64,000 bases of DNA from Mycolicibacterium sphagni (GTDB taxonomy: Bacteria; Actinomycetota; Actinomycetes; Mycobacteriales; Mycobacteriaceae): assembly GCF_002250655.1 (NCBI RefSeq), contig NZ_NOZR01000001.1, positions 124,001-188,000 on the forward strand, written 5' to 3'. Of this stretch, positions 1-16,279 are shown piece by piece; within the stretch, counting starts at the first letter, position 1, and every line of letters starts with the position of its first letter. Below the pieces are notes generated by a model, which was given only the letters and a program-made list of their open reading frames with translations, was not told the DNA's origin and did no database searches. The position numbers and the translations under genes are program-made.

Positions 1-118
1 GCAACCTTGACGCGTTCTCCCTTGCGCGGCGAACGGCGTTCGCGCAGCGGATCTCCGCATCCCCACAGGGAAGGATCTCGCGGACTTCGATGAGTCCGAG
101 CGGAAGGCCGTTCACAAC

Positions 119-580
119 TTGTGCTCGTTCGGTTACCCCGGCGTATGGGTGCCGAAATCGACAAAGGTCTCATCTCTCTATCGTCCCCGCGCGGTGCCTG
201 TCCTCGACGGCTATGTCGCGATGGCCTTTGGGTTCAGCCGCAGAGGCTTCTCGGAGGGAAAGGTTTCTCGCCGCGAGCGCATACAGCGGGTAGTCGATGC
301 CCTCGCCACTTACCTGAATCAGCACCGGGAACACATGACGCAACTGCGCGAATCCCTGCGGGGTTCCGTGGCAGATATCGACGTCGCCTCGGATCTTCGT
401 CTACTCGACATCGTGCTTTGGTGCTCTCAAGATGACAAGGACGAGCGTGCCGGGAAGAGGCGGAACGCTTGGCTGGACGCTGCCGAACGCGCCTATGAAC
501 CGGACCCGCTCACATGCATTGCGGTGACCGCCGGCGTGCCTCCCGAACTAACCATGGAGGTTCTCGACAGTTGGCCATAG
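119..580 (+). CDS. Hypothetical protein, probably 5'-truncated
   Basis: The reading frame is open from position 11, just after a TGA at 8-10, and runs to the TAG at 578-580. The first usable start is a TTG at 119, yet the residues encoded between 11 and 118 (for example ADLRIPTGKDLADFDESERK) look like real protein. The gene has therefore either lost its 5' end or is frameshifted near the window edge. The product has a charged middle (SRRERIQRVVDALATYLNQ) and an acidic helix-rich C-terminus (SDLRLLDIVLWCSQDDKD). I do not recognise the family. It is probably a remnant of a roughly 200-residue actinobacterial hypothetical protein. Confidence 0.4.
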   Translation: MCSFGYPGVWVPKSTKVSSLYRPRAVPVLDGYVAMAFGFSRRGFSEGKVSRRERIQRVVDALATYLNQHREHMTQLRESLRGSVADIDVASDLRLLDIVLWCSQDDKDERAGKRRNAWLDAAERAYEPDPLTCIAVTAGVPPELTMEVLDSWP

Positions 581-915
581 CCCTCACCCCGTCTATAGAC
601 CACAAGTGCATGTTTCGGCGAGTTGTGGATGAAGGCTAATTTCACCTGCCTGTCGCCTTGACCCTGCGATGGTGAAGGCGTCGGCTCTCCGCAGGCGTTA
701 AACGATGCAACATGGCGCTTTAGAAGAAGCTGGAGGCCGTCACGTAGCCACGGCCAGCGAAAGCGTGCTCGACCGATTCGATAATCGCGCAGGGGCCAAC
801 TGCGGCAATGGGCGCTACATCTCCGCCATCCTGAATGTTATGGCCTGTGGCCGCCGACAACACCGGTATCACAGAACGGGCAGGTGGTAGGTAAGGCAGC
901 AGGTGAATCCTATTG
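581..915. other. Intergenic, no gene seen
   Basis: The two flanking genes converge here. A short open frame at 705-890 has no ribosome-binding site and an unprotein-like composition, so I do not call it. No tRNA-like cloverleaf or clear terminator is visible. Confidence 0.5.
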
Positions 916-1428
916 TTAAATGGTCACGCCAATAGCAATAACACAAATCAAGTTCATGATGATCGAAAATACCGTCACGAGAGAATACGGACTACGCCCT
1001 TTGCGCTCCGCATAAGTGGCTGGTGGGGTTTTGAATACCCAAAGCAGGAGCCCACACGTTACTATGAATGCAATGGCAGTCACTGCGATAGCCACGACTA
1101 CGTTTAGATCGGCGGATAAAGCCAATAAGCCGGTAATGATAGGGAGTATTCCAGCTGGAATAATCTGAACGAAATCGGAAACGTACTCAACATAATCAGG
1201 CATCTGCGCGGGATGAGTATTGGGGTAGTACGCGGCATCCGTCGGAACTCCGGCCTTCTGGGCATCTCGGTTAATGTGGCCAAGGAGAGCGCTGTTGGCA
1301 GCGTCAGTAATTAAGGGACTTAGCAGTAATAGGACGATTGCAAAAACTACGGGAAGTAACGGGCTATATCGTTCACTCCATGTTGGCGCGGGAATTGGCG
1401 GCCCATCCGCGAGGAACTGAAGCAGCAT
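916..1428 (-). CDS. Four-TM membrane protein of unknown function (third gene of accessory operon)
   Basis: A 170-residue integral membrane protein. Hydrophobic segments lie near residues 25-45, 85-108, 110-130 and 150-170, with a polar loop of about 40 residues between the first and second. There is no signal-peptidase motif and no recognisable catalytic motif. The ATG at 1428 follows the stop of the preceding minus-strand gene by only 4 bases, so the two are almost certainly co-translated. Base composition is clearly more AT-rich than the mycobacterial core, which suggests transfer. I do not recognise the family. Confidence 0.6.
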   Translation of the reverse strand: MLLQFLADGPPIPAPTWSERYSPLLPVVFAIVLLLLSPLITDAANSALLGHINRDAQKAGVPTDAAYYPNTHPAQMPDYVEYVSDFVQIIPAGILPIITGLLALSADLNVVVAIAVTAIAFIVTCGLLLWVFKTPPATYAERKGRSPYSLVTVFSIIMNLICVIAIGVTI

Positions 1429-1432
1429 CCTA

Positions 1433-1858
1433 TTACTTACTGGTTGAAACTTGTATATTCAGCGTCTCTGTATTTGACGCTGCCGCGCCGCCTGTCAGAT
1501 TCCAAGTCAATTTGGTCACAATGTTCTGATAATTCGCAGCTCCACGACTCGTGAGCTTCTCCTCCGCCGCCCTCTGGCTCTTCCGCGGCCCTCCCCGGTT
1601 CTTCTTACCGGGTCGTGGCGGCAGTGTGAACGAAGTCTTCCACTCTGCATCTGGGGCGGTGCCCTGATAACGGACACTCGGAGAAGTACATTTAGCTTCG
1701 ATTTCAATCGTATACGGAAGATTGCTAATATTCTCGGCGTGCACTCGATGACAATCGACGCCGTTAACGCTAACCGTGCAATTTCCACCAGAAGTGATGA
1801 CTTGACTCACAATTTTAAGCCACGACGGACTGTTATTCGTTGAATCACTACAGCTCAT
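1433..1858 (-). CDS. Small basic/polar protein of unknown function (second gene of accessory operon)
   Basis: A 141-residue protein without membrane segments. The N-terminal half looks like a beta-rich domain with several cysteines (SGGNCTVSVNGVDCHRV). The centre is a strongly basic linker (PGKKNRGGPRKSQRAAEEK), and a second beta-rich stretch follows (TKLTWNLTGGAAAS). It starts with ATG at 1858, 20 bases after the preceding gene's stop, and its stop lies 4 bases before the next start. The basic linker could bind nucleic acid or lipid head-groups, but that is only a guess. Family unknown; AT-rich like its neighbours. Confidence 0.55.
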   Translation of the reverse strand: MSCSDSTNNSPSWLKIVSQVITSGGNCTVSVNGVDCHRVHAENISNLPYTIEIEAKCTSPSVRYQGTAPDAEWKTSFTLPPRPGKKNRGGPRKSQRAAEEKLTSRGAANYQNIVTKLTWNLTGGAAASNTETLNIQVSTSK

Positions 1859-1878
1859 TGTGGTAATCCCCTAACCCA

Positions 1879-2403
1879 TCATTGTTTGGTACCGGAATAA
1901 AACAGCTTTGATAGCTCAGCAAGCGAGCCTAGAATATCGTCGCTGATGTATTCCGGATTTGCCGTCAAGTGCACCAGCTTCTCCGCAAAATATTGGTCAC
2001 CATTATAAAGGTCTGAGGTGCTGTCACCAAATCCCGCCAAGACGATCCCATCCGCCATCATCGGTTGATACATGATGGACCGCGTCAACGAAACGTCGAT
2101 TCGAAGAAAGCGGCAATTTGAATCAAAGAAATCGCGGTATTCTCCGCGTACATACTTAATTAGCCGATCTTCGCTCAACTGAAAATAATTTCCAGTATTC
2201 GATAGGTCTAGAGTTATATCGGAATCATCTAGTGAGGCGATGGACAAGATCGTCTCAACAAACTCCGATGGCGAATTGTTGGTCGTCCAATTCGCAGCAA
2301 TGGCTTCAGCGGAAGCATCGAATACGGCCAGGCCTCCTTCTACAAATTGAATCTGCCGGACCAAACCATCGTCGCGCGGAATGTCTAGGAGCTCCCTTGC
2401 CAC
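1879..2403 (-). CDS. Acidic cytosolic protein of unknown function (first gene of accessory operon)
   Basis: A 174-residue acidic soluble protein that begins with GTG at 2403. The start is chosen because an AAAGGAGG-type ribosome-binding site sits about 8 bases upstream. The sequence is mixed alpha/beta, with no membrane segment and no nucleotide-binding or nuclease motif I recognise. It heads a three-gene minus-strand operon with 1433-1858 and 916-1428. The trio (acidic soluble, basic linker protein, membrane protein) sits next to a broken integrase in AT-richer DNA, so it looks like imported accessory cargo. Function unknown. Confidence 0.6.
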   Translation of the reverse strand: MARELLDIPRDDGLVRQIQFVEGGLAVFDASAEAIAANWTTNNSPSEFVETILSIASLDDSDITLDLSNTGNYFQLSEDRLIKYVRGEYRDFFDSNCRFLRIDVSLTRSIMYQPMMADGIVLAGFGDSTSDLYNGDQYFAEKLVHLTANPEYISDDILGSLAELSKLFYSGTKQ

Positions 2404-2932
2404 GGCAGGTCCTCCTTTGCCTCTGTACGGGAACCTTTAGACTATCGCTCTTAGCCGACAAGCACAGCGCATGCTGCAAATCCAAAGGTAAACGCGAAGT
2501 AGCCGATCCACCCACTTTGCACCGCGCCGCTTCGTGTTCACGCGCCGCTTCGTGTTCAATCGGAAAGCCCTCGAACTGCCCCTGCCTACAGGTGGGAGCA
2601 GCCTCGAATAGCCAGCGTTGCGGCTCCGTGACCATGGAAACGGCTGCCCCACTCGGCCTCCAACAATGAACAGAACAGTTCACCGCCCCGGAATCCTTAT
2701 TGATGCGCAGACCTGCCTAGTTGGGGTACACCCATGCTGGACACCCGGTGCACGCCCTAGCGGTCTCGAAGTGGGGTCTTCTGAAGCATTGATTGACAAT
2801 CGTCCATCAATTCTCTTGAGCCGTAGCCGCTGAAGCGTGTGGTGTGATGTCAGTCAAGCCGAGTTTGAGCTCGATCACTACAGTCGGCATGTCACGAGCG
2901 ATGAACATCGCCGCACGGGTGCTGGTGCAACT
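2404..2932. other. Intergenic region upstream of accessory operon
   Basis: It contains the promoter side of the minus-strand operon and the 18-bp tandem repeat noted separately. A short frame at 2847-2936 ends in an overlap with the GTG of the integrase remnant; it may be the tail of a lost upstream gene. Nothing else can be supported. Confidence 0.4.
2523..2558. repeat. Perfect 18-bp tandem direct repeat (two copies)
   Basis: The unit CGCGCCGCTTCGTGTTCA occurs at 2523-2540 and again directly at 2541-2558, without mismatch. It lies 120-155 bases upstream of the accessory operon's start codon. It could be a regulatory direct repeat or a recent slippage duplication. Confidence 0.85.
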
Positions 2933-3328
2933 GTGAGCCGCCGGAAAGTGCTACCCGACGCGCCGATCACTTGGCTGTCCCTGATTGACGAGTACCTCAC
3001 GTAGTTGCGTGGCGTGGGCCGCTCACCCCAGACGGTCGAGCTGCGCCACTCCCAGCTCCGCTTTGTTGCCAGGGAAATCGGTGCCCATTCGAATGCCGTC
3101 ACTGAGGACGACCTGACGACGTTCTTCGCCTGCTATGGCGAAGAACGGGGCCCGGAGACCCGCAAGAGCTACAGAGCTGCGGTGCGCGCGTTCTTCGATT
3201 AGGCATGGGAGTTCGGCTGAGTGCTGAGCAACCCGGCAGCCGACCTTCCGCGGGTCCAGACGATCAAGCCGACCCCAAGACCCGCCGACGACGGGGCATG
3301 GCACGAGGCCATGGCGGCGGCTCGATGA
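2933..3328 (+). pseudogene. Degraded tyrosine recombinase (phage-type integrase) N-terminal domain
   Basis: Reading from the GTG at 2933, the frame encodes a typical core-binding (SAM-like) domain: WLSLIDEYL, then LRGVGRSPQTVELR, then RKSYRAAVRAFFDWAWEFG-like sequence with SNPAADLPRV after it. It is interrupted by TAG at 3002, TAG at 3200 and TGA at 3218, and ends at TGA 3326. The catalytic R..HxxR..Y domain is absent. Intact relatives have about 300-380 residues. It is a dead integrase marking an old integration event next to the accessory operon. Confidence 0.75.
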
Positions 3329-3344
3329 CGAAGCCCTGTCGATT

Positions 3345-3488
3345 ATGGACGACCCTGGCTACTACCGGCGGAGCATCACCGGACCAATAGACGAGGACTG
3401 GCTCCGATCCGCAGCGCAGGCAGCTGCCGCCGAGAGCGCCGCTTGGCGGGCAGAGATGGAGACGTTGCCCCGATCGCCGCCACCGTAA
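3345..3488 (+). CDS. Small acidic protein or 3' gene remnant (47 aa)
   Basis: The frame encodes a protein-like sequence beginning MDDPGYYRRSITGPIDEDWL and continuing through an Ala/Glu-rich helix (RSAAQAAAESAAWRAEME). The frame is open upstream to about 3312 (LDDEALSI before the ATG), so the true start could be lost where it fuses to the broken integrase. A hairpin follows the stop by about 25 bases, which supports a transcribed unit. Size and composition recall small antitoxin-like or prophage proteins, but I cannot assign a family. Confidence 0.4.
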   Translation: MDDPGYYRRSITGPIDEDWLRSAAQAAAAESAAWRAEMETLPRSPPP

Positions 3489-3513
3489 GAGCCGCTGATC
3501 GGCCCCGGGGGCG

Positions 3514-3530
3514 CCATCCTTCCGGGGTGG
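3514..3530 (+). terminator. Short hairpin, possible terminator
   Basis: CCATCC pairs with GGGTGG around a five-base loop 25 bases after the stop at 3488. The local sequence nearly repeats the stronger hairpin at 3810-3833. There is no T-tract, as is usual in mycobacteria. Confidence 0.45.
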
Positions 3531-3591
3531 TAACGCGTTCATGCGGAGTTGGTGACCTGGTTGTCATCTGGTCCCGCTACCGTCTCAAGCC

Positions 3592-3792
3592 ATGAGGATC
3601 GTCTTGCCGTTGATCGCCGTGGTGTTGCTCGCCGCCGCGGATGCGGAACTCAAGTGGTGGATCCTCGCCGCTATCGCGGCGTACAGCCTCTACCGCGGCG
3701 GCCGGCGGGTAATGCGCTGGCATCGCGCCCAAGCAGTTGCACGCTTAGACCGGCAAGTTGAGATCCACCGCCGCGGGGTCGCGGCCCTCTGA
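3592..3792 (+). CDS. Small single-span membrane protein (66 aa)
   Basis: The N-terminus is a long hydrophobic stretch (residues 1-32, MRIVLPLIAVVLLAAADAEL then WWILAAIAAYSLY). A strongly basic amphipathic C-terminus follows (RGGRRVMRWHRAQAVARLDR). This is a positive-inside, membrane-anchored small protein. No good Shine-Dalgarno precedes the ATG at 3592. A 10-bp-stem hairpin begins 18 bases after the stop, which supports its being an independent gene. Function unknown. Confidence 0.5.
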   Translation: MRIVLPLIAVVLLAAADAELKWWILAAIAAYSLYRGGRRVMRWHRAQAVARLDRQVEIHRRGVAAL

Positions 3793-3809
3793 GCTACACC
3801 TGACTCCGC

Positions 3810-3833
3810 CCCGCCATCCTTCGGGGTGGCGGG
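3810..3833 (+). terminator. Strong UUCG-loop hairpin, probable terminator
   Basis: A ten-base-pair stem (CCCGCCATCC with GGGTGGCGGG, one G-U pair) closes a TTCG tetraloop, right after the small membrane-protein gene. UUCG loops are exceptionally stable. It lacks a T-tract, as many mycobacterial terminators do. It could also serve the converging gene at 3885-4235. Confidence 0.65.
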
Positions 3834-3884
3834 CCGAATCATGTTGCCTACTAGGTGGTTCAGCCCTAGCTCCACAGCCGGTAC

Positions 3885-4235
3885 TCAGTCGTGGCCGCCA
3901 GCGTCTAGGCAGCCCTGTACGTAGTCTTTCTTGACGTTCGTCGCCCCGGCCCGATATCTGGCTTCATATCTGTCCTCGCAGAAATCCGCGCCTGGTCCGC
4001 CTGGTATTCGCAGGTATTCCTTCGCGTCGCGGTAGCCCTGCTGGTAGGACGCTTCGTCACGGGGAGGGCCACCTCGATCGACAGCGACGATAACACCGAC
4101 GGCGGTGAGTGCACCTACCACGGTCGCAATTGCCACCAAAATCTTGCTTCGCTCGGCGTTACCGCCAGGCGGTGTGCGCATTGCCCACATACGCCCGGAG
4201 GTTATCAGGCCGCCTAGAGCACCGACCTCGTCCAC
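3885..4235 (-). CDS. Membrane-anchored small extracytoplasmic protein
   Basis: As written, 116 residues from GTG 4235; ATGs at 4190 or 4181 are equally possible starts and no ribosome-binding site decides. One transmembrane helix (ILVAIATVVGALTAVGVIVA) is followed by an external tail rich in Tyr, Asp and Gly with two cysteines (ADFCEDRYEARY and YVQGCLDAGG) that could form a disulphide. The pattern fits mycobacterial small anchored proteins of unknown role. It is monocistronic and converges with 3592-3792. Confidence 0.55.
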   Translation of the reverse strand: MDEVGALGGLITSGRMWAMRTPPGGNAERSKILVAIATVVGALTAVGVIVAVDRGGPPRDEASYQQGYRDAKEYLRIPGGPGADFCEDRYEARYRAGATNVKKDYVQGCLDAGGHD

Positions 4236-4339
4236 ATTCCCGCTCTAGGGCACCGACGAGCCCCGTCATCGACTCTCCGGTGGCGGGCCAGACCACCGCT
4301 TCGGCTCATCGCTCGGGAAGTGCCGGCGCGAAACGCTCG

Positions 4340-4915
4340 TCGAGCTCCTCCACGGGGGAAAACGTTGGGAGCCAACCGCAACAGTATTTCACCGACAGTC
4401 AGTCACTGGTGATCGACGGGGCGCAAAACCCCGCAGATACCCTCGCGGCGGTGTACCTGGATCCGCAGTCGACGGACTATGTTCAACCGGGCTTGTCGGT
4501 GAACATCGAGACCCCATTCGATGTGCCTCGGGGACTCAATTTTGACCTGTTCAGGTGTGCTTCTGAGGCGCTCGGTGCTGACGGAAACGTCGACCGAGTC
4601 GATGGAGGGGCAGGTTGCGATCGAACATCTCAGCAAGGCGGGTGATCTGATCGCGCTCCTTGACGACGTTCCTAATCGCAGCCCCGGTGACGGCTCCCGT
4701 CCGCTGGCGCTCCCGTCCCGCCGCCACCGGGGCGACAATGTGGTGACCGTCGGCGTCGGGTACCACGTGGCGGCATCGAGCGGGTAGCCCAGCGTCTGAG
4801 CGGACCACACAGCGTGATGACGGTGGTGGATGCAGCCACCCAGAATCTGCCGGCCGGGCTGAACGTAAAGTGGTCGTCTGGTGCCCGCGGGAGCGAGCGC
4901 TGGAGTCTGTCATAG
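4340..4915 (+). pseudogene. Frameshifted remnant of an unidentified protein
   Basis: Protein-like stretches appear in successive frames. First comes QSLVIDGAQNPADTLAAVYL and an Ig/beta-like run to GLNFDLF (to about 4550). Then TESMEGQVAIEHLSKAGDLI appears in another frame (about 4590-4680). Finally MTVVDAATQNLPAGLNVKW ends in TAG at 4913. No single frame spans them, so this is probably a decayed gene. I do not recognise the parent family. Confidence 0.35.
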
Positions 4916-6676
4916 ATCGATCACGACGGTTTCGCAGGGCTGTGAGCAACAGATCAGAATGTTCCCCTCTGCGGGACGCTCCAGGGGCTCGGGGTCGTAG
5001 CGGACGGTCCCCGAAAGCAGCGCGGTCTCACAGTTGTGACATACCCCGGTACGGCAGGACCAGCGAGTCGGGACGTCACACGTCTCGGCGAATTCGAGCA
5101 GAGTGGCGCTGGGCGGTCCCCAGGGAACGGATAGGCCACTGCGTGCGAACTGAACCACGGGGCCGGGTCCGGGCGGCCCCATGGGTGGGTGCGGGGGGAT
5201 CGACGTCGCAGCGATTCCGGGTGTGAGAGCGGCTGCGGCGCCGAAGAGTTCGGAGTGGACGTGGGCGGGATCCAGTCCGTGGCTCACGAGACCGGAGCTG
5301 AGTTCATTCATGAACGCCGACGGTCCGCACAGATAGGCGTGTGCGTCGCGCGGGAGGTCGAGTCGACCGATCGCTTCGCGGGACAGTCGGCCCTGCTCGG
5401 TGAAGTCGATGCCGCTCCGGTCAGCCGGTGCTGGACGACTGTAAAAGATGTGAGAACGACTGCCAGGCAACTGGTTCAGCAAATCGCGGCTCTCCTCGGC
5501 GAACGGGTGTTCCTCTCCGTTGCGGGCGCCGTGCAGCCACCAGAGCGGACGCTGTGAACGTGTAGCGGCGAGCCAGTGCAGCATCGATAGCACTGGGGTG
5601 GCTCCCACTCCGGCGGAGAGCAGAATCAACGGCGCGGGCGCGTCGGTGAGGAAGAAGGTGCCTCGTGGTGCGGCGACGTCGAGGAGATCACCAGGGTGGA
5701 CGTGACCGTGTATGTGACCGCTGGCCAACCCGTGTGGTTCCCGTTTGACGCTGATTCGGTAGTCCGTGGAGCCTGGCCGGTTCGACAACGAGTAATTGCG
5801 AATCAGCGGCGCACCGTTCGGCTCGGGGAAGAGCCGCAACGTAATCGACTGTCCTGGAAGCCATTCCGAAAGGGGTGCGCCCTCGGGGTCAGTTAGCGAG
5901 ACTGAACGCACATGGCGACTCTCCTCATGAACGGCGCTGACTCGCAGTGGCCGAAACCCAGTCCATGCTGGTGGCGGGCTGCTCGCGGCGGCTGTCAGAC
6001 CGACGTTGCCCGCCGATCCCGCCGCGCTCCCGGTCTGCTCCGCCAAGCTTTGTAGGGACGCTCGCCAACCGGCGCTCAGTGCTGGAATCCGCAGTGCGCG
6101 TTGGAGGGCGTCGCGGGGATGCCCGGGCAGGTAAAGCAGTGCATCGATCTCGGCGACTGACACCTGCTCGGGTCCAGAACTGATTTTGACGATGTCCTGG
6201 CCGGCTTCTACTTCACCCTCGTTGATCACCCGACAGTAGAACCCCGGTCGCCCGTGCGAGACCAGCAGTGCCGCCATCCGCGGTTCGCCGATGCGCATGC
6301 CGGCGCGGTAGCAGGTGACCCGCGGTTGGGTGACCTCCAGGACCGCCTGCCCAATCCGGTATCGGTCGCCGATGCACACCTCGTCGTCGGGAAGTCCGTC
6401 GACAGTGAAGTTCTCCCCCAGCAGCCCAGGCACGAGGTCATCACGGTCGAGCACCTCCCCCCAGTGCCGGTAGGAGTCGAGTTGGTAAACCAGGACGGCG
6501 CGATTCTCCCCTCCATGCCCGCCGAGATCACCTTGGCCGTCCCCGTCGACGTTGAGCCGACGCACCATCCGCGGCCCGGTCACCGGGTGCTTCCACGCGC
6601 CGGTGTAGACGGTGCGCTGGTTCCAGTCAACATTCCTCGGCATGCCGACATTCACCGACGTCAGTGTCGCCATCAT
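4910..6676 (-). CDS. MOSC domain - ferredoxin-NADP reductase - [2Fe-2S] ferredoxin fusion oxidoreductase
   Basis: 588 residues with three domains in order. Residues 1-165 are a YiiM-type MOSC domain (GDLGGHGGENRAVLVYQ, QPRVTCYRAG with the candidate molybdenum-ligand Cys). Residues about 240-480 are an FAD/NAD(P)-binding reductase (RNYSLSNRPG flavin motif, LLSAGVGATPVLSML). Residues about 505-588 are a plant-type ferredoxin with CRTGVCHNC and a fourth Cys in NILICCS. It probably passes electrons from NAD(P)H through FAD and the cluster to a MOSC-bound cofactor or an external substrate, as in YiiM/YcbX-like N-hydroxylated-base reduction; this is inference. The ATG at 6676 has AAGGAGAGG upstream. 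It is the last gene of the 8999-4910 operon, 40 bases after its neighbour. Confidence 0.85.
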   Translation of the reverse strand: MMATLTSVNVGMPRNVDWNQRTVYTGAWKHPVTGPRMVRRLNVDGDGQGDLGGHGGENRAVLVYQLDSYRHWGEVLDRDDLVPGLLGENFTVDGLPDDEVCIGDRYRIGQAVLEVTQPRVTCYRAGMRIGEPRMAALLVSHGRPGFYCRVINEGEVEAGQDIVKISSGPEQVSVAEIDALLYLPGHPRDALQRALRIPALSAGWRASLQSLAEQTGSAAGSAGNVGLTAAASSPPPAWTGFRPLRVSAVHEESRHVRSVSLTDPEGAPLSEWLPGQSITLRLFPEPNGAPLIRNYSLSNRPGSTDYRISVKREPHGLASGHIHGHVHPGDLLDVAAPRGTFFLTDAPAPLILLSAGVGATPVLSMLHWLAATRSQRPLWWLHGARNGEEHPFAEESRDLLNQLPGSRSHIFYSRPAPADRSGIDFTEQGRLSREAIGRLDLPRDAHAYLCGPSAFMNELSSGLVSHGLDPAHVHSELFGAAAALTPGIAATSIPPHPPMGPPGPGPVVQFARSGLSVPWGPPSATLLEFAETCDVPTRWSCRTGVCHNCETALLSGTVRYDPEPLERPAEGNILICCSQPCETVVIDL

Positions 6677-6716
6677 GGTCTCCTCTCCTTGGGGCGAAGC
6701 GATGGTCGATCTGGTC

Positions 6717-7980
6717 TCAGCTGAAACCGGGCATCACCGACAGCCCAGTGACGATCGCCGCGGTGCACACCGCCATCGAGACGACATTGCCGATGAACGG
6801 GTGAAAGTGCGGGGGCAGCCGTCGGGCCACCGCCGCGGCGAACGGCGGGCCGGTGAGCGCACCAAGAACCGCCCCGGCCACGATGGCCTGCACAGATCCG
6901 TCGAACGCGAGAACCGTTGCCGGAGCGATGGACACGACGGGAACGAAGGTGGGGTACCAGCCGTAAGTTGCCCATTGGCGGTGCCACAGTGCGACGGCCA
7001 GCGCGGCAGTCAATACTTGTGACGTCAACGCTTCGGGTAGCAGGTTCCCGATATTGCTTGCCATTGCGGGGTTGAGCAGATAGCTGATGACGGTGCCTGC
7101 CAGCAGACCGGCACTGGCCCATTCGTTGCCGATGAACTGGGCATCGGTGAAGTCGGCGATGATCCGACGCGACAGCCATTGCGGCCCTTGCCGATTGGTG
7201 TCGACGAAGTGGTGCGGGGACCCCGCGCTGCAGCGCGGCACGACCACTGTTGGGACCCGCATCCAGGGCAGGTGCCGGCAGAGCGCGAACGCCATCAGTG
7301 CGCTGATCGCCATGCCGGTGGTGGCCCCGACCACGGGGGGAAGACCAAGGGGGCGGCACCCGAAGTTCACCGCGACCAGGGCGATGGGGGTGCTCAACGC
7401 GGCGCCGAGGATCGCGCCGGTCAGCGCCACCGAGCGCCGGCCCCCGTAGACCAGGACGACAGCTGGGGGAACCGAGGCGAACGGGACGAATGTGGGCTGC
7501 CACATGCCCGACACAGCAATCGTCCACCCCCACGCCGCGTTGCTCAGCACCAGTCCGAGGGCTGCGCTGCCCACCGCCCAGCCGAACAGGCCAGTGCCGG
7601 AGGTGACCGGAAAACCCATCCAGCGCTTCTTCGTCCTGAAGCCTTGGTGGGCGAGGTATCCCCCGAGCAGCATCATCGCCCCGGCCACGGCGGAGTGCGC
7701 GTAACCAGGTTCGGTGGTGTCACCCAGGACCCAGGCAGCCCATGACGCACCGTCCAAGTAGTCGCCGTGCCACCTGGTATATCGAGGCATGAACAGCGGT
7801 AGAGACGGGCGCAGCCGGGCCAGAACCTGGAGCATCACCGCCGCAACACCGGCGATGAACACCGCCGTCACCCACAGAGTGAACGCCGAGGCGCGTTCCC
7901 GCGCTGCGGGATCCGGGCAGGTGGGGTTGTCAGGGACCGCCGGCCTGGCCAGGTCGCCGTCGTGGGTGGGTGAAGGTGAA

Positions 7981-7988
<8 letters not shown>
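6717..7988 (-). CDS. Polytopic membrane protein with an internal duplication, unknown substrate
   Basis: 423 residues with about ten hydrophobic segments after a soluble, proline-rich N-terminus. The two halves are homologous to each other: MWQPTFVPFASVPPAVVLVY with VALTGAILGAALSTPIA in the first half corresponds to GWYPTFVPVVSIAPATVLAF with AIVAGAVLGALTGPPFA in the second. Such inverted- or direct-repeat folds are typical of transporters. The GTG at 7988 overlaps the TAG of the 46-aa gene upstream (GTGAGTAG), so translation is coupled. Substrate unknown. The same operon holds a MOSC-ferredoxin enzyme and a hydrolase. Confidence 0.7.
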
Positions 7989-9011
<1,023 letters not shown>

Positions 9012-9114
9012 TCAACACGATGAGGAGTAGCCGGTGCGCCAGCGGGTAGTTTGGCCAGCACAGCACGGCGCCATCCCTAGCGCATCCTGGGTGAACCCCA
9101 GTCGATCAGTGGCG

Positions 9115-11931
9115 TCATGGTGACGTAAGAGCCCCGCCGGGATGCCCCTCCAGGCCCTCGGCGAGGGCGGACGCGAGTTGGCGCCGCGACGTCACTCCCA
9201 TTTTCCGGAAGACCTTGCTGAGGTGGTATTCCACGGTGGACGTCGTGATGAACAGTCGACTGGCGATCTCGGCGTTGGTCGCGCCGGCGCCAGCTTGGCG
9301 TGCCACCTGGGCCTCCTGAGGTGTCAGGCCGAATGGGTTGTCTGTGCGCGGCGCATCAGCTGTCGTCTGGCCAGCCGCGCGGCGCTCGGCACCCGTGCGG
9401 CCGGCGAACGCCGCGGCTCCCATCGCGGTGAACATGTCGTAGGCGGTGCACAGCTGCGCCTGCGCGTCGCGGCGACGCTTCCTACGGCGAAGCCACTCGC
9501 CGTAGAGCAGATGTGCACGGGCGAGCTCGGTGCGCATCGCGGTCTCCGCCAGCCGCCTGATGGCATCCCTGTAGTAAATCTCGGCGTCACTGTCGGCGGC
9601 CATCAATGCCCGCGACCTCGCCAACAGACCTAGAGCCCACGGGGTAGCAGCGGCGGTGGCGCGTTCGGTCAGCCGCGTCAGCGCCGCTTCAGCTGCGGCC
9701 CGGTCTCCGCCACGTACGCCGGCCTCGACGACCTCGGGCAGTACACGGTTCCCGAAGCCTGGCGGGTCATCGTGGAGTATCGGCAATCCCCATCTGAGCG
9801 CCTCCGGGTACCGGCCTAGTCCGAGTTCCAAGACGGTGAGACCCATCAGCGCGAATATCTCCAGAATCGAGGCGCCCTTTTGACGACCCCAATCCGCGGT
9901 CGAGGATGCCACTGCGCGGCTCTCGCTTTCGCGGCCCTGCCAGGCGCGCACTTCCAATAGGACCCCGGTCGTCGCCGGCGGGGGCACCCCGATTAGCACC
10001 GAGATCTCGGCGGCCTCGCCGTAGCTGTTCTCGGCATCGTTCATCTGCCCTGCCCAGGCCTGGCTCGTAGCGAGTCCGGCCAGGGTGATCCGCATCGCCC
10101 CCAACGCCCCCTGGCGGCGCTCGATTGCATGGGCGCGTTCGAACATCGCCCGACGACCTTGCTCGTCCCACACGTCGTCGGCGGCGAACCATCCCAGAAT
10201 CGTTGATGGGATGTCGACATGCGCGGCGACCTCGTCGGTGAACAGCATCGACACCGCGGCTCGCAGCAGCGGGACCGCATCGGCGTAACCGGTGGCGATT
10301 CGGGTGGCGAAACCATCCAGCAGCAGGTCGTTGGCACTGGGCGGCCGACCCGGGTCTCGGGCGGCGCCCAGCGCCGCGTGCGCTACCTCTTCGAGGGTCG
10401 TGCCGGCGGTGTATTGGCGGGCGACGATCGCAGCCTGCATGGCATCGAACAGAACCTGCCTGACCAGGGACGCGTCGGCCGGTTCGACTTTCGTCGCCGC
10501 CTCCAACAGGATGCCGGGGGCATCTTTGTGCCGGGAGAAGAACACCGAGATCGCTGCGCGCAGGCGTTGCACTGCGACGTGCATGCCGGCGTCGTCGAGT
10601 CCCGGAGTTGCCAAATCCAGCAGTGCCTCGGCCAGTAGGCCGTTACCAGCCGCCAGGTACGCCTGCGCAGCAGCCAGGTAGCGCAACCCACGTTCTCGGG
10701 GGTTGGGCGACAGCTCTGCGGCGCGCGTTAAGAACGCGGCCTGCATGGTGTAGCCACCCCGGCGCTGGGCGCGCACCGCCGAGGCCTGCAGGTCAGCGGC
10801 GATCGTCTCCTCGGGAGTCGTCACGGCGGCCGCTCGGTGCCAGGCAGCCTGGTCGTCATCACCGTCACGCTCGGCCACCGTGGCCAGCGCGTCGTGCACG
10901 CGCTGACGATCCTCGGATGTCGCACCGTCGTACACCGCCGAGCGGATGAGCGGATGCCGGAATGCGATACGCGGCTCCAAAGACACGATGCCCTGCTGCA
11001 CAGGGTGATTGGCTGCCGCCGCGGTGACGCCCAGTAACGCACCGGCTCGCTGCACTGTCGACGGCTCATCGTCGGCGCAGGCCGCGGCGACGAGCAGAAC
11101 GGTGCGTGCCTCAGGAGACAGCGCGGCGATCTGTGCCAGGAAGTGAACTTCGACCCGACGCCCGACCGGTAGGCGGCGCGGCAACGGGAACCGCCCGGCC
11201 AACTGTTCGGCGGTGAGTTCCCCGACCAGCTCCAGCATCGCCAGTGGGTTGCCGCCGGTCTCGCTGATCATGCGCGCTGCCACTCGCGGATCCAGCGGCC
11301 CGGATACGGCCTTGTCGAGGAGGGTGTGAGCCGACGCCGGATCCAGCGCAGCGATTCGCCGGGTGGGCAATCCGTCCAACGCGGTCAGGTCACCGGCGTG
11401 CTCTCGGGCGCTGAACACCATGCCGATGGGGTCGGCGTACAGCCGGCGTGCGATGAATCCCAGCACCGCCAGCGATTCCTGGTCCAGCCACTGGGCATCG
11501 TCGATCAGGCAGAGCACCGGGCCCTGCGCGGCGACCTCGGACATCAGCGCCAACGCGGCCAGGCTCACCAAAAGTTGGCTCGGCGGCGGCCCTTCAGTGA
11601 GACCGAATATCACTTCCAGCGCGTTGCGTTGCGGGCCGGCCAGCCTGTTCAGGCGATCGAGATGGGGCAAGACGAGCCGGTGCAGTGCAGCGAATCCCAA
11701 CCGCAGCTCTGATTGCGCTCCGACAATCCACACGGTCGCCGCATCGGTCGCCGAGTCCGCCACGTATTGCAACAAGCGGGTCTTGCCGACGCCGGGTTCG
11801 CCGGCGAACACCAGCGAGCTGCTGAAGCCGCCGCGGACGTCGGTCGCGAGCTTGTCGAGCATCGCACACTCCGCAGCCCGCCCGAGGATGGCACCGATAA
11901 CGCCAGCGTGGTCGATCCGATCATCGGTCAA
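9115..11931 (-). CDS. LAL-type LuxR transcriptional regulator with N-terminal AAA/STAND ATPase
   Basis: 938 residues, the usual size for the MalT/LAL family. The Walker A motif GEPGVGKT is at residues 44-51 and Walker B is VLCLIDDAQWLD. A long TPR-like helical middle is followed by a C-terminal LuxR helix-turn-helix (LTPQEAQVARQAGAGATNAE, then STVEYHLSKVFRKMGV). Such proteins sense a ligand through the ATPase/TPR region and activate nearby promoters. The start used is TTG at 11931; no in-frame ATG or GTG lies just upstream. It lies upstream of the 8999-4910 operon on the same strand and divergent from the hydrolase at 12277, so either is a plausible target. Confidence 0.9.
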   Translation of the reverse strand: MTDDRIDHAGVIGAILGRAAECAMLDKLATDVRGGFSSSLVFAGEPGVGKTRLLQYVADSATDAATVWIVGAQSELRLGFAALHRLVLPHLDRLNRLAGPQRNALEVIFGLTEGPPPSQLLVSLAALALMSEVAAQGPVLCLIDDAQWLDQESLAVLGFIARRLYADPIGMVFSAREHAGDLTALDGLPTRRIAALDPASAHTLLDKAVSGPLDPRVAARMISETGGNPLAMLELVGELTAEQLAGRFPLPRRLPVGRRVEVHFLAQIAALSPEARTVLLVAAACADDEPSTVQRAGALLGVTAAAANHPVQQGIVSLEPRIAFRHPLIRSAVYDGATSEDRQRVHDALATVAERDGDDDQAAWHRAAAVTTPEETIAADLQASAVRAQRRGGYTMQAAFLTRAAELSPNPRERGLRYLAAAQAYLAAGNGLLAEALLDLATPGLDDAGMHVAVQRLRAAISVFFSRHKDAPGILLEAATKVEPADASLVRQVLFDAMQAAIVARQYTAGTTLEEVAHAALGAARDPGRPPSANDLLLDGFATRIATGYADAVPLLRAAVSMLFTDEVAAHVDIPSTILGWFAADDVWDEQGRRAMFERAHAIERRQGALGAMRITLAGLATSQAWAGQMNDAENSYGEAAEISVLIGVPPPATTGVLLEVRAWQGRESESRAVASSTADWGRQKGASILEIFALMGLTVLELGLGRYPEALRWGLPILHDDPPGFGNRVLPEVVEAGVRGGDRAAAEAALTRLTERATAAATPWALGLLARSRALMAADSDAEIYYRDAIRRLAETAMRTELARAHLLYGEWLRRRKRRRDAQAQLCTAYDMFTAMGAAAFAGRTGAERRAAGQTTADAPRTDNPFGLTPQEAQVARQAGAGATNAEIASRLFITTSTVEYHLSKVFRKMGVTSRRQLASALAEGLEGHPGGALTSP

Positions 11932-12276
11932 CGCGTCACCCCACGCCCAGCACCGATGCAGACAATGACACCGCCTGCTACGTCGGCGCTATCTGTCGAG
12001 AACAGAGAACAGAACTGACCATAGAATTCTGGCAGCGATGCGCCAGCTGTGCACTCTAAGAGTCGCGCAACGCGAGGCATCGAGTGCGTGCCAGACGTCA
12101 ATCAGCGAGGAACCCATCCGCCCCGAATCAGCACCCAATCACTGGGGTTCATCCCGGATTCGCGCCCGCCTGGTTCCATGGTCGGCTGCAGTACGTCGGC
12201 GGCGCCGACACGCACACCACGCCCACTGCCTTGCCGGCCCAGGCACGGGACGGCAGCTTCCGAACAGGTGACGTCC
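11932..12276. promoter_or_regulatory. Divergent intergenic region between LAL regulator and hydrolase
   Basis: 345 bases separate the two divergent starts. A reading frame stays open from 12049 into the hydrolase, but conserved sequence begins only at the ATG at 12277. I see no convincing palindromic operator. This region is the natural place for both promoters and for a LAL-regulator binding site. Confidence 0.4.
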
Positions 12277-13164
12277 ATGAATGCTTTTGCCACTCGATAC
12301 AACACGGCGACGATCGAAGGACTCGATGTGTTCTACCGCGAGGCCGGCGATCCGAACAACCCCACGTTGTTGCTGCTGCACGGCTTCCCATCCAGCTCCC
12401 ACATGTTCCGCAACCTGATCAACTCCCTGGCCGACGAATACCACCTCGTGGCCCCGGATCACATCGGATTCGGTCGCTCGGCCATGCCCACCACCACCCA
12501 GTTCACCTACAGCTTCGACCGTCTCACCGAAATCACCGAAGGCTTGATCACTCACCTCGGTCTCGAGCGGTTCGCCCTCTACATTCACGACTACGGCGCT
12601 CCGATCGGCCTACGCATCGCCACCCGCCGCCCCGAACGGATCACCGCGCTGATAACCCAGAGCGGCAACGCCTACGTAGAAGGCTTCACTCCGTTCTGGG
12701 ACATCCTGTTCGCCCACGCCAAGGACCGCGCCGCCAACGAGGACGGCGTGCGGGAAAAGTTCACCCCTGAAACCACGTATTGGCAATACACCCACGGCGT
12801 ACCCGCCGATCGGCTCGACAGGATCGCCCCCGAGACCTGGCAACTCGATCAACTCGGCCTGGACCGCAAGGACAACGACGCCATCCAACTGCAGCTGTTC
12901 TGGGACTACCAGTTCAACCTGGACGGCTACCCCGCGTTCCAGGAGTACTTCCGCACACACCAGCCCCCGCTGCTAGTCACCTGGGGCAAGAACGACGAAA
13001 TCTTCGGCGCCCCCGGCGCTGAAGCGTTCCGACGTGACTTCCCCAATGGCGAATTCCACCTCCTCGACGCCGGACACTTCGCGCTGGAAACCCACGGCGA
13101 GGAGATCAGCGGATACATCCGCGACTTCATGCCGCGAGCACTAGCCACCGCAACGACGAACTGA
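12277..13164 (+). CDS. Alpha/beta hydrolase with Asp nucleophile (haloalkane dehalogenase / epoxide hydrolase-like)
   Basis: 295 residues from the ATG at 12277. The [13 protein letters not shown] oxyanion loop, a nucleophile elbow [10 protein letters not shown] with Asp in place of Ser, the acid region [11 protein letters not shown] and the His in [10 protein letters not shown] are all present. An Asp nucleophile is characteristic of haloalkane dehalogenases and soluble epoxide hydrolases. [13 protein letters not shown] ([12 protein letters not shown]) is also typical of that branch. It is transcribed away from the LAL regulator at 9115-11931, which may control it. A truncated short-chain dehydrogenase follows 49 bases later. 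Confidence 0.8.
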
Positions 13165-13213
13165 CCCGGCCACGCCCACCGGCCGACGACGCCACCATTC
13201 GGAGGACGACAGG

Positions 13214-13390
13214 ATGACCGTGTTACAGGGCAAGATCGCCCTAGTAACAGGCGGGACAACGGGTATCGGCTTGGCCACCGCGCAAAGCATCGCCGCAGAG
13301 GGCGCCTATGTCTTCTTTACCGGCCGCAATCAACCCAGCATCGACACCGCGATCGCATCCATCGGATCCAACGCCACCGGAATCCGCAAC
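13214..13390 (+). pseudogene. Short-chain dehydrogenase/reductase, N-terminal fragment
   Basis: The first 55-60 residues are a normal SDR start: [18 protein letters not shown] (TGxxxGIG cofactor motif) and [19 protein letters not shown]. After SNATGIRN, near 13390, similarity stops abruptly and the frame continues into unrelated sequence antisense to the RbpA-like gene. The catalytic Asn-Ser-Tyr-Lys part is missing (intact SDRs have about 240-250 residues). The ATG has CGGAGGACGACAGG upstream. It is a broken gene whose 3' part was replaced or deleted. Confidence 0.8.
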
Positions 13391-13443
13391 ATGGCGATCA
13401 ACCGGCTCAGGGGAAACTGGCCGGTGCGAAAGATGGCGTGGAG

Positions 13444-13782
13444 CTACCTGCCGCGCTGTGACCTGACGAGCGCGAGGCGCTCCTGGAGCAGTTCATCGAG
13501 TTCTTCGATCGTGCGGCGTTCCAGCAGCATGTCCCAGGGTGTGCGCGGCACTTTGACCTTTTTGGGCTCAGCGGGCTCGCGCCCCGCGATGACCGTGCCC
13601 TCCATGCCGTTGCGGCATTGCCAGGTGCCGGGGATCTCCGCGTCGTCGGCGAACGGTATATCGAACTCTTCGCCGTTCCCGGTGCGATACCGCGCGACTG
13701 AACGCGGCGCCAAATTGTCTTTGCGGTCAGTCTCGTAACTAACCGACCCGAGTCGACTGCCCCTCATGACGCGATTAGCCAT
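13444..13782 (-). CDS. rbpA: RNA polymerase-binding protein RbpA (probable paralogue)
   Basis: 112 residues, closely matching actinobacterial RbpA along its full length: N-terminal [14 protein letters not shown], core [19 protein letters not shown], basic linker [10 protein letters not shown] and sigma-interaction helix [20 protein letters not shown]. RbpA binds RNA polymerase and group 1/2 sigma factors (SigA, SigB) and stabilises open complexes. The start is taken at the ATG at 13782, where MANRVMRGS matches the family N-terminus. In other mycobacteria I recall a single rbpA near ppm1. The surroundings here are quite different (broken SDR, repetitive secreted protein), so this is probably a second copy. 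Confidence 0.88.
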
Positions 13783-13986
13783 CGTCAACAACTTCCTGAA
13801 ACGCACACGCGAAAAAGCTGTGTGCAGGTTAGAGCCAGCCAAGCGGGGCCCCAGATGGCTTTACAACCTTCGTCCACCACTCTAGCCCCAGAGGGCCTAG
13901 GGGACCTTCTTTGGTATGGAATCGTGCCGCCGCCGCGTGGCGAGGTTGCCCCGATCCACCGGCATCGACTGGCCGGAACAGTGCGA

Positions 13987-14877
13987 CTATGCCCTGGCGC
14001 GATGAGCCACTGCGGTGACGCTGCGTGCACCCGCTGCATGCGGGGCCGCGGCGGCAGCCTTGGCGTTTCCCACCGCGGCGGCACCGCCAACCACGAGGCC
14101 GGTGAGGTTGATGCCGGGCCCCTCTTTGGTAACGACTGCGCCGGTTTGCAGAATCGACCCCGCGATCGCCAGCGGGCCGGCGCCGGCCTCGACGACGTTG
14201 CCGGTGCCCAAGACGTCGAACGCCCACCCCAACACAGCGGGACCGCTTGCGCCCTTCGCTATCACCGTCGCACTTCCAAAAAGACTGGTGGCATTGGAGA
14301 GAATGCCTTCGGCGAGGACGTCACCGGTCGCACCGACGTTGACGCCGACATCGCCGTTGCCGACGGCCACCACGCTTCCGTTGCCCAAGAAGTTCACTGA
14401 CAGATTGCCCAGCCCTGTCGCCGAACTGATGTGCGTACCCTGATTCGACAGGTTCACCGCAATATTGCCGAAGTCGGCCGGATCGCCCGCCAATGCCGAA
14501 CTCGTTGCACCCCCGACACCGCCGGCAAAGGCCATCGAAAGATAGCCCTGCGCAACAGATTCACTGTCGTTGCCGAGTGCGGTCGCGGTGTTGAACAGGC
14601 CGCCTGCGGAGGTGACGGCCGTCGCGCCGGTGCCAAACGCGAATGCGCCACCGAAAAGCCCGTTGGCATAAGCGGTCGCGTTGGTGCCGACAGCAATGGC
14701 GATGCTGGTCACGGTACTGGTACAGGATGCGGTGTTACCGATACCGAAGAACGATGCGCAGGAGGCGCTAGCCGAGGGCGCCGCGCTCAGACTGACGGTG
14801 GCCAAGGCCCCGGCGGTCAACGCCCCGAGCAGCGCGGCGCCGGTGAGCGTGATGCGAGTTGCGGTGTGCTGGCCCAT
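13987..14877 (-). CDS. Secreted Ala/Gly-rich repetitive protein
   Basis: 296 residues from the ATG at 14877, which has AAAGGAAC six bases upstream. A signal peptide covers about residues 1-38 (LTGAALLGALTAGALATVSL, then ASAS cleavage region). Two early cysteines (SCASFFGIGNTASC) may form a disulphide. The rest is a run of degenerate repeats with Gly-Asn/Gly-Thr turns (AVGTNATAYANG, AFGTGATAVTSAG, ALGNDSESVAQG). This resembles the beta-roll head repeats of trimeric adhesins and mycobacterial PGRS-like secreted proteins. Probably a cell-surface protein; the exact family is not recognised. Confidence 0.7.
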   Translation of the reverse strand: MGQHTATRITLTGAALLGALTAGALATVSLSAAPSASASCASFFGIGNTASCTSTVTSIAIAVGTNATAYANGLFGGAFAFGTGATAVTSAGGLFNTATALGNDSESVAQGYLSMAFAGGVGGATSSALAGDPADFGNIAVNLSNQGTHISSATGLGNLSVNFLGNGSVVAVGNGDVGVNVGATGDVLAEGILSNATSLFGSATVIAKGASGPAVLGWAFDVLGTGNVVEAGAGPLAIAGSILQTGAVVTKEGPGINLTGLVVGGAAAVGNAKAAAAAPHAAGARSVTAVAHRARA

Positions 14878-15103
14878 GAAGGTTCCTTTATTAGTGGCAC
14901 CCCCGGCGCGTAATTTACGCCTCCGTAAGGCCATTGGCACCCGTAATGGATCAGCCGCGCGAGGCACGGACTCGCCTACCTCGGCACTGCCGAAATCTCA
15001 CCTGGCGGATGACTTTTGCCCACGCACCCGCCAGTGAGTTGAACAAGACTGATAGTCCCAAAAATCACCCACGCAGCCCGTCCACCGTCGTAGGCTGCCA
15101 ACC

Positions 15104-16279
15104 ATGACCGCGCCCGCGCAGCTGCCGTTCCGCCAACGTCATCCACTGCGCTCCCCCGACCAACTGCTCGCCCTGCAGGGCAGCGGGCCGATCCACAAGA
15201 TCCTCACCGCCGTCGGCGACGAGGCCTGGCTGGTCACCGGTTACACCCTGGTGCGCCGGCTGATGGACGACGAACGGCTGGGCCGTACCCACCGCGACCC
15301 GGCCAACGCACCCCGCAGCCGGACGTCGGCGTTGTTCGGCGGCCCGATCGGCGACTTCGACTCCGAACCCACCGACCACGCCCGAATGCGCCAGCTGCTG
15401 CAGCCGCACTTCGGCCCTCGCCATATGCGAACGCTGCAACCCAAGATCGAAGGCTTGTGCACCGCCCTGCTCGACGACATGGAACGCCAGGGATCGCCTG
15501 CCGACCTACTGACCAGCCTGGCCCAGCCACTGCCGATTCTGGTGATCTGCGATCTGCTCGGCGTGCCCTATGAAGACCGAGATCGCTTCCGGCTGTGGGT
15601 CGACGACGCCGCGTTCTCGCCCGACGACGACGTGTCGCTGAAGGGTCTGGAGAAACTGCTCGGCTACGGCATGGAGCTGGTCGCTGCCAAGCGTGCCCAC
15701 CCAGGCGACGACGTCATCTCCCGCCTGTGCGACGAACCCGACCTCGCCGACTTCGAGATCGCCACCCTGGCCATGCAGCTGCTGTTCGCCGGACACGAAA
15801 CCACGGTGACGCAGATCTGGGTCGGCTCGCTGCTCCTGCTCACCAACCCCGACCAGTGGCAGGCCCTGCTTGCCGACCCCGACCTGATCCCCAAGGCTGT
15901 CGAGGAAATCCTGCGCGCGGGCATGGTCGGCGGGGTCGGCGTCCCCCGGTACGCGCGAGCCGACATCGACGCCGACGGGGTGACGATCCGCGCCGGCGAC
16001 CTCGTTCTGCTGGACCCGGGAGCGGCCAATCACGACCCCGAGTTCTTCGCCGACCCTCATCGCGTCGACCTCGCCCGCACCGGCGCCGCCCATGTCGGCT
16101 TCGGCTATGGCTTGCATTACTGCGTCGGCGCCGCGCTGGCCCGCCTCGAGCTCAAGACCGTCTATTCGCAGCTGATCCCCCGGTTCCCGAACCTGCGGCT
16201 ACAGGTCGACCCGTCGACCATGACCGCCGGCTTCCATTCCCTCTCGCACGGCCTGGTCGCCCTGCCCGTGACCTGGTAG
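15104..16279 (+). CDS. Cytochrome P450
   Basis: 391 residues, the normal length for a bacterial class I P450. The I-helix oxygen-activation motif AGHETT begins at residue 229, the ExxR motif lies in EEILR, and the haem-binding loop FGYGLHYCVGAALAR has its Cys near residue 340. It needs a ferredoxin and a reductase, and none is adjacent. It has no membrane anchor. Its neighbours (secreted proteins on the other strand) give no substrate clue. The CYP family cannot be assigned without a search. Confidence 0.93.
   Translation: MTAPAQLPFRQRHPLRSPDQLLALQGSGPIHKILTAVGDEAWLVTGYTLVRRLMDDERLGRTHRDPANAPRSRTSALFGGPIGDFDSEPTDHARMRQLLQPHFGPRHMRTLQPKIEGLCTALLDDMERQGSPADLLTSLAQPLPILVICDLLGVPYEDRDRFRLWVDDAAFSPDDDVSLKGLEKLLGYGMELVAAKRAHPGDDVISRLCDEPDLADFEIATLAMQLLFAGHETTVTQIWVGSLLLLTNPDQWQALLADPDLIPKAVEEILRAGMVGGVGVPRYARADIDADGVTIRAGDLVLLDPGAANHDPEFFADPHRVDLARTGAAHVGFGYGLHYCVGAALARLELKTVYSQLIPRFPNLRLQVDPSTMTAGFHSLSHGLVALPVTW

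Follow-up and report, generated by a model that had tools for sequence, protein, structure and literature searches.

A conserved accessory three-gene operon in lineage-specific DNA of Mycolicibacterium sphagni, tentatively linked to membrane-based phage defence

Three adjacent genes of Mycolicibacterium sphagni, here called A, B and C, constitute what is almost certainly a conserved operon, with a homologous set in a genome of another family of the same order (G572). It belongs to the accessory gene content of both genomes. We tentatively propose, with more doubt than conviction, that its products would act as one membrane-based device, most likely in phage defence, by analogy with RexAB. The window that we analysed is a stretch of 64,000 nucleotides within contig C11 of the 6.07 Mb genome.

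The trio occupies the minus strand as open reading frames for gene A (1879-2403, GTG start, 174 aa), gene B (1433-1858, 141 aa) and gene C (916-1428, 170 aa, four predicted membrane helices), with 20 bases between A and B and 4 bases between B and C. The strand, sizes and spacing given in the initial annotation were thus confirmed. A predicted ribosome-binding site of gene A, AAAGGAGG (2411-2418, minus strand), is placed 7 bases 5' of the GTG. The predicted pI is 4.2 for A, an acidic protein, and 9.35 for B. The composition of the trio is foreign-looking, and the earlier remark that it is AT-richer than the rest of the window was borne out: its GC is 0.492, against a window mean of 0.663 and a lowest value of 0.603 among the 1488-base stretches that do not touch 580-3000. 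The window minimum over 1488 bases is 0.489, for the stretch starting at 881. Third-position GC is 0.50-0.51 in A, B and C vs 0.73-0.87 in five other genes of the window.

The locus in G572 was detected with the profile of B alone, and A and C were used afterwards as confirmation. Since it was found independently of A and C, a chance match is very unlikely. There, P0003 (the match of B) is preceded by P0006, a protein of 570 residues whose C-terminal domain corresponds to A, and directly followed by P0004 (the homologue of C). The genes overlap, by 8 bases at the start of the B gene and the stop of P0006, and by 1 base at the start of the C gene and the stop of the B gene. Conserved adjacency in another genome had been set beforehand as a test of the trio, and G572 keeps all three genes with order and strand unchanged, which identifies the trio as a real conserved operon. 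B aligned to P0003 with a score of 104 (maximum of 51 in 1000 shuffles), and C to P0004 with a score of 126 (maximum of 81 in 1000 plain shuffles, and of 84 when the helix positions were kept, again in 1000). The match between A and P0006 is the weakest of the three: the local score was 72 against a shuffle maximum of 58 (n=2000), BLASTP with the C-terminal part gave E 4e-4 in a single comparison, and phmmer ranked P0006 second only to A itself among 2309 frames (E 0.047).

Among 151 congeners of G572, P0006 was present in one, G572 itself. The GC of the G572 trio (0.687) is close to that of its surroundings (0.669), so this copy is not compositionally foreign. The same genome carries a second, truncated copy of P0006 (L060, G572:C23:6260-6505) restricted to the first 82 residues at 85% identity, near a frame that we labelled transposase-like by reading.

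Complete A-B-C loci were found twice, in the window and in G572. A search of ~5.8 billion proteins, which detects only relatives with short exact words in common, returned one relative of C (P0001, 52% identity, E 3.9e-35), one of B (P0002, 45% identity, E 6.9e-27) and none of A. No relative of the trio was present in phage, plasmid or viral collections, and a pattern search of the contigs of the species' genomes with C and B returned none. In the genus sample of 396 genomes, matches were obtained in two genomes for B, two for C and one for A, the own genome being included each time, and it alone held a credible copy of the trio. The other B match (G112) was a basic stretch at a locus where C had no profile match; the other C match (G166, E 0.007) lay within a frame of 536 aa, and its locus had no match to the three-row C profile. 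We rejected both.

In the order sample, the two-row profile of B matched 6 of 387 genomes, five of them outside the own genome. The matches in G492, G543, G573 and G679 were set aside, as no C-profile match occurred at those loci. We did not accept G845, G927 and G956, which gave partial, hydrophobic matches; when 588 frames were searched with the C profile, G845 and G956 reached E 2e-5, and judged by sequence they may be distantly related to C. A candidate for a third trio was in G976 (L068 3412-5417), where a C-like stretch scored 65, 78 and 77 against shuffle maxima of 58, 61 and 62 (2000 shuffles each). It was rejected because the C-like reading is divided between two frames and because its A-like and B-like neighbours, plausible by eye, had no support from profiles: profile A5 had no match at E 10, the best match of profile A4 (E 0.19) lay elsewhere, and in pairwise comparisons at best 20 and 147 of 2000 shuffles were equally good.

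The initial annotation had placed none of the three proteins in a known family, and this held: Pfam, NCBIfam, PADLOC and PHROG returned no convincing family for A, B or C and sub-threshold matches only, the best being that of C to phrog_12382, of unknown function (E 0.0075). PADLOC-DB 2.0.0 had no profile match for A, B or C at E 1, and among the G572 proteins it matched only P0006, to a ZorF model (E 0.91). DUF4747 was absent from all three window proteins (Pfam, E 5). Sequence searches of solved structures gave a best E of 0.089, for P0006. The predicted structures of A and B are too poor to use, with pLDDT of 39.7 for B, modelled from a two-row alignment, and of 35.4 for A, modelled as a single sequence without the first residue. 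A literature search returned no description of the trio, which has no name to search by.

The trio lies in DNA specific to this lineage. The last gene of a tRNA cluster, tRNA-Val(GAC), lies about 1050 bases left of the window, and at its end similarity to congeners stops. We compared 12 congeners, using fetched stretches of 20 kb each and counting pieces of at least 60 bases at E 1e-5; in all 12, nothing matched from the tRNA end up to window position 15083. Shared DNA restarts at 15084 in G004, at 15102 in G009 and at 16049 in G018; in seven of the 12 it does so further right, and in the remaining two the fetched DNA shows no restart. The right edge came out at ~15042 when G004, G009 and G018 were compared with higher sensitivity. 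The lineage-specific DNA thus spans ~16 kb, of which 1-15041 lies in the window; its place is taken by 0.6-0.7 kb in G004 and G009 and by about 2.2 kb in G018. As in a tRNA-anchored island, it begins at a tRNA 3' end, but a far-side direct repeat was not found: no 14-base word of the tRNA region (L004 18401-19000) recurs exactly in the DNA from there to the window end. The ~16 kb may comprise more than one insertion. Elsewhere, the own genome has a stretch of 45 bases (G000:C7:41148-41192) that perfectly copies part of tRNA-Val(CAC), and a 31-base copy of the tRNA-Val(GAC) end at 97% identity occurs in G010 (G010:C202:31288-31318); these copies are possible attachment sites of other elements. 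The lineage-specific DNA also encodes a 938-residue regulator with AAA_16 and LuxR-type parts (9115-11931) and, at 4910-6676, a single protein in which MOSC and YiiM-like parts are joined to FAD, NAD and 2Fe-2S reductase domains.

The genes closest to the trio look broken. The tyrosine recombinase that had been described as broken proved to be a piece of 65 residues (3005-3202, plus strand) flanked by two in-frame TAG stops. In an alignment of 64 residues it is 40% identical to a phage tyrosine integrase, that of the Mycobacterium phage JustASigh (E 6e-6). Five phage records match it: besides JustASigh, these are four records of Gordonia phages, with E 0.4-0.9; the plasmid collection gave no match. 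Pfam scans of nine frames in 3205-4949 and of one at 2618-2833 did not reveal the catalytic domain. The piece is likely a trace of the element that delivered the surrounding DNA. On the other side, a DUF6308 gene is represented at 119-580 (plus strand) by its C-terminal piece, which matches PF19827 from position 112 to 191 of 193 (E 5e-7). The piece to its left (L004 19775-20000) has no Pfam match, and hence this gene looks broken too. A literature search found no mention of DUF6308.

A small membrane protein of foreign composition next to a phage-type integrase piece could also be cargo of a lost prophage serving superinfection exclusion or lysogeny, in which C would block the entry of related phage DNA and A and B would regulate it, the cell not being stopped. 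We consider this quite improbable: phage and viral collections held no relative, no integrase was present among the genes scanned near the G572 trio, and three genes with a partner of 570 residues are much for simple exclusion. The sub-threshold match of a transposase helix-turn-helix (E 0.005) is a further feature of the G572 surroundings.

C is the member that would give the proposed device its place in the membrane. In Kyte-Doolittle profiles, C, P0001 and P0004 each show four hydrophobic segments, by a method crude enough to find three in CarolAnn gp43, for which four are stated in the paper describing it. The loop between segments 1 and 2 is long and net acidic, and the best-kept stretch of the protein, the motif Q...Y.EY..D..Q.IPA, lies where this loop enters segment 2. 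Segments 3 and 4 are joined by a loop with 2-4 basic and 0-1 acidic residues. Basic loops face the cytosol according to the positive-inside rule. Loop 3-4 should therefore be cytosolic, and the long loop 1-2 should lie on the same side despite its net acidic charge. We propose that C would be a membrane effector.

B is a candidate connector. Its two aligned relatives are 50% and 26% identical to it, and seven residues are invariant in the three sequences: C3, C27, H37, C57, W13, W73 and W119. The Cys3-His set is possibly a metal or redox site, judging from conservation. The initial annotation had ascribed a basic linker to B. The window protein is basic, but this is not a trait of the family, as P0002 and P0003 have pI values of 5.7 and 6.4. 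The accompanying idea of nucleic-acid binding is weakened accordingly.

We propose that A is a regulator or coupling domain. A and P0006 share the tripeptide 'DAS', and A has no motif that we could name. As its domain forms the C-terminal end of P0006, A may be the coupling part of a system in which the fused front part may differ. P0006 itself had no Pfam match at E 1; its match to Dynamin_N (positions 124-166) is faint (E 0.8), with 11.7 bits for PF00350 against a cut-off of 27. The P-loop (GxxxxGK[ST]) is absent from both P0006 and A. A dynamin ancestry of P0006 was not supported: 225-344 of 500 shuffles were as good in comparisons with four dynamin-family frames of G572, and an hhalign comparison was likewise negative.

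A is missing the ~400 residues that precede its domain in P0006, which leaves the copy in the window possibly incomplete. Taken further, this would make the window trio a remnant in which A has been shorn of its long sensing part and travels as a passenger in decaying island DNA, next to broken integrase and DUF6308 genes. Yet the frames of A, B and C are all open and tightly spaced, and A has its own strong predicted ribosome-binding site and a start that coincides with the domain border in P0006. Hence, decay into a remnant has in our judgement a low probability, and the preferred reading remains that of a device built from all three products.

The initial annotation had noted that a soluble sensor, a partner and a membrane effector is a layout seen in some anti-phage systems. 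What stands of this is a conserved accessory trio; what does not is any fit to PADLOC or any adjacent defence gene, as the Pfam scans made beside the window and G572 trios found no recognised defence genes. The neighbours in G572 could hint at another use. An AAA_33 gene adjoins the trio, and a CdiA_C gene (L055 13137-14252, E 5e-20) lies about 3.5 kb away. With A being acidic, the trio could serve membrane maintenance or competition, responding to envelope stress or, in an immunity-like manner, to a rival's toxin, with C as the membrane component and A as its acidic partner. However, both genes lie outside the operon, scans at the window locus found neither of them, and the dynamin-like ancestry of P0006 is unsupported. 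We regard such a role as rather unlikely. In G572 the CdiA_C gene is followed by a small gene with no Pfam match.

The defence reading draws on a comparison with known membrane-acting systems. The prophage pairs of Sbash and CarolAnn belong to the same bacterial order as the hosts of the trio. Their descriptions (PMC6426596, PMC6426606) propose that the soluble partner of Sbash gp30/gp31 and of CarolAnn gp44/gp43 opens an ion channel made of four helices. The trio resembles these RexAB-type systems in combining a soluble partner with a small membrane protein for which four helices are predicted (178 aa in gp43, 165 aa in gp31 and 170 aa in C), and in being encoded, like the pairs of Sbash, CarolAnn and lambda, by adjacent genes in prophage or mobile DNA. 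It differs in having three genes instead of two. The position of the conserved loop differs as well, between helices 1 and 2 in C and in a cytoplasmic region between helices 2 and 3 in Sbash gp31. The likeness does not extend to sequence. C scored 31 against CarolAnn gp43, a score reached by 503 of 1000 plain shuffles and by 598 of 1000 in which the helices were kept; against gp44, which is RexA-like and DUF4747-like, 262, 567 and 362 of 1000 shuffles were as good as A, B and P0006, respectively. The trio thus appears, by sequence, not to be homologous to the tested pair, CarolAnn gp44/gp43.

Other systems offer looser parallels. Activation of RexB in Pseudomonas putida caused membrane damage, with no measured depolarisation (PMC12894663). 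Like Csx23 (PMC11014256) and Cam1, membrane effectors of type III CRISPR, the trio would disturb the membrane upon a signal. Unlike the trio, Csx23 combines two helices and a cyclic-nucleotide-binding domain in one chain (PMC11014256), and no CRISPR genes were noticed beside either trio. DynA of Bacillus subtilis delays phage lysis (PMC8844932); by comparison, P0006 has a faint Dynamin_N match and lacks a P-loop, and the window holds the A part only.

We infer a role as cytosolic regulator or sensor for A, a connecting role for B, an effector role for C, and phage defence for the trio as a whole, whose products would form a complex. In the proposed mechanism, A would detect infection or stress, either by itself or together with a partner that senses it. 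B would relay the signal to loop 1-2 of C, whose end bears the best-kept motif. C would then alter membrane permeability and halt growth, as proposed for RexA/RexB. We counted in favour of defence the trio kept in G572, the accessory distribution, the foreign composition, the tRNA-anchored DNA, the integrase piece, the four predicted helices of C with the motif beside helix 2, and the precedent of the Sbash and CarolAnn pairs. Our assessment of the mechanism stays tentative and short of even confidence because no defence model matched, the complete loci are two, A is possibly incomplete, the genes beside the trio are broken and the structure models are poor. A bolder version, to which we give a fairly small chance, would see in the trio a new modular family of membrane defence, in which an A-type domain, standing alone or fused to exchangeable sensors, would drive a fixed B-C unit, with the Cys3-His set of B as a metal or redox switch and C as a four-helix gate.

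The trio defines three protein families that are missing from the four libraries searched and that are conserved as a single operon. Rare modules of this kind surface only when weak profile matches are checked against the neighbouring genes. If the trio acts in defence, it would add a three-part system of regulator, connector and gate, unrelated in sequence to the tested RexAB-type pair, in a host group whose prophages are already known for membrane-acting defence.
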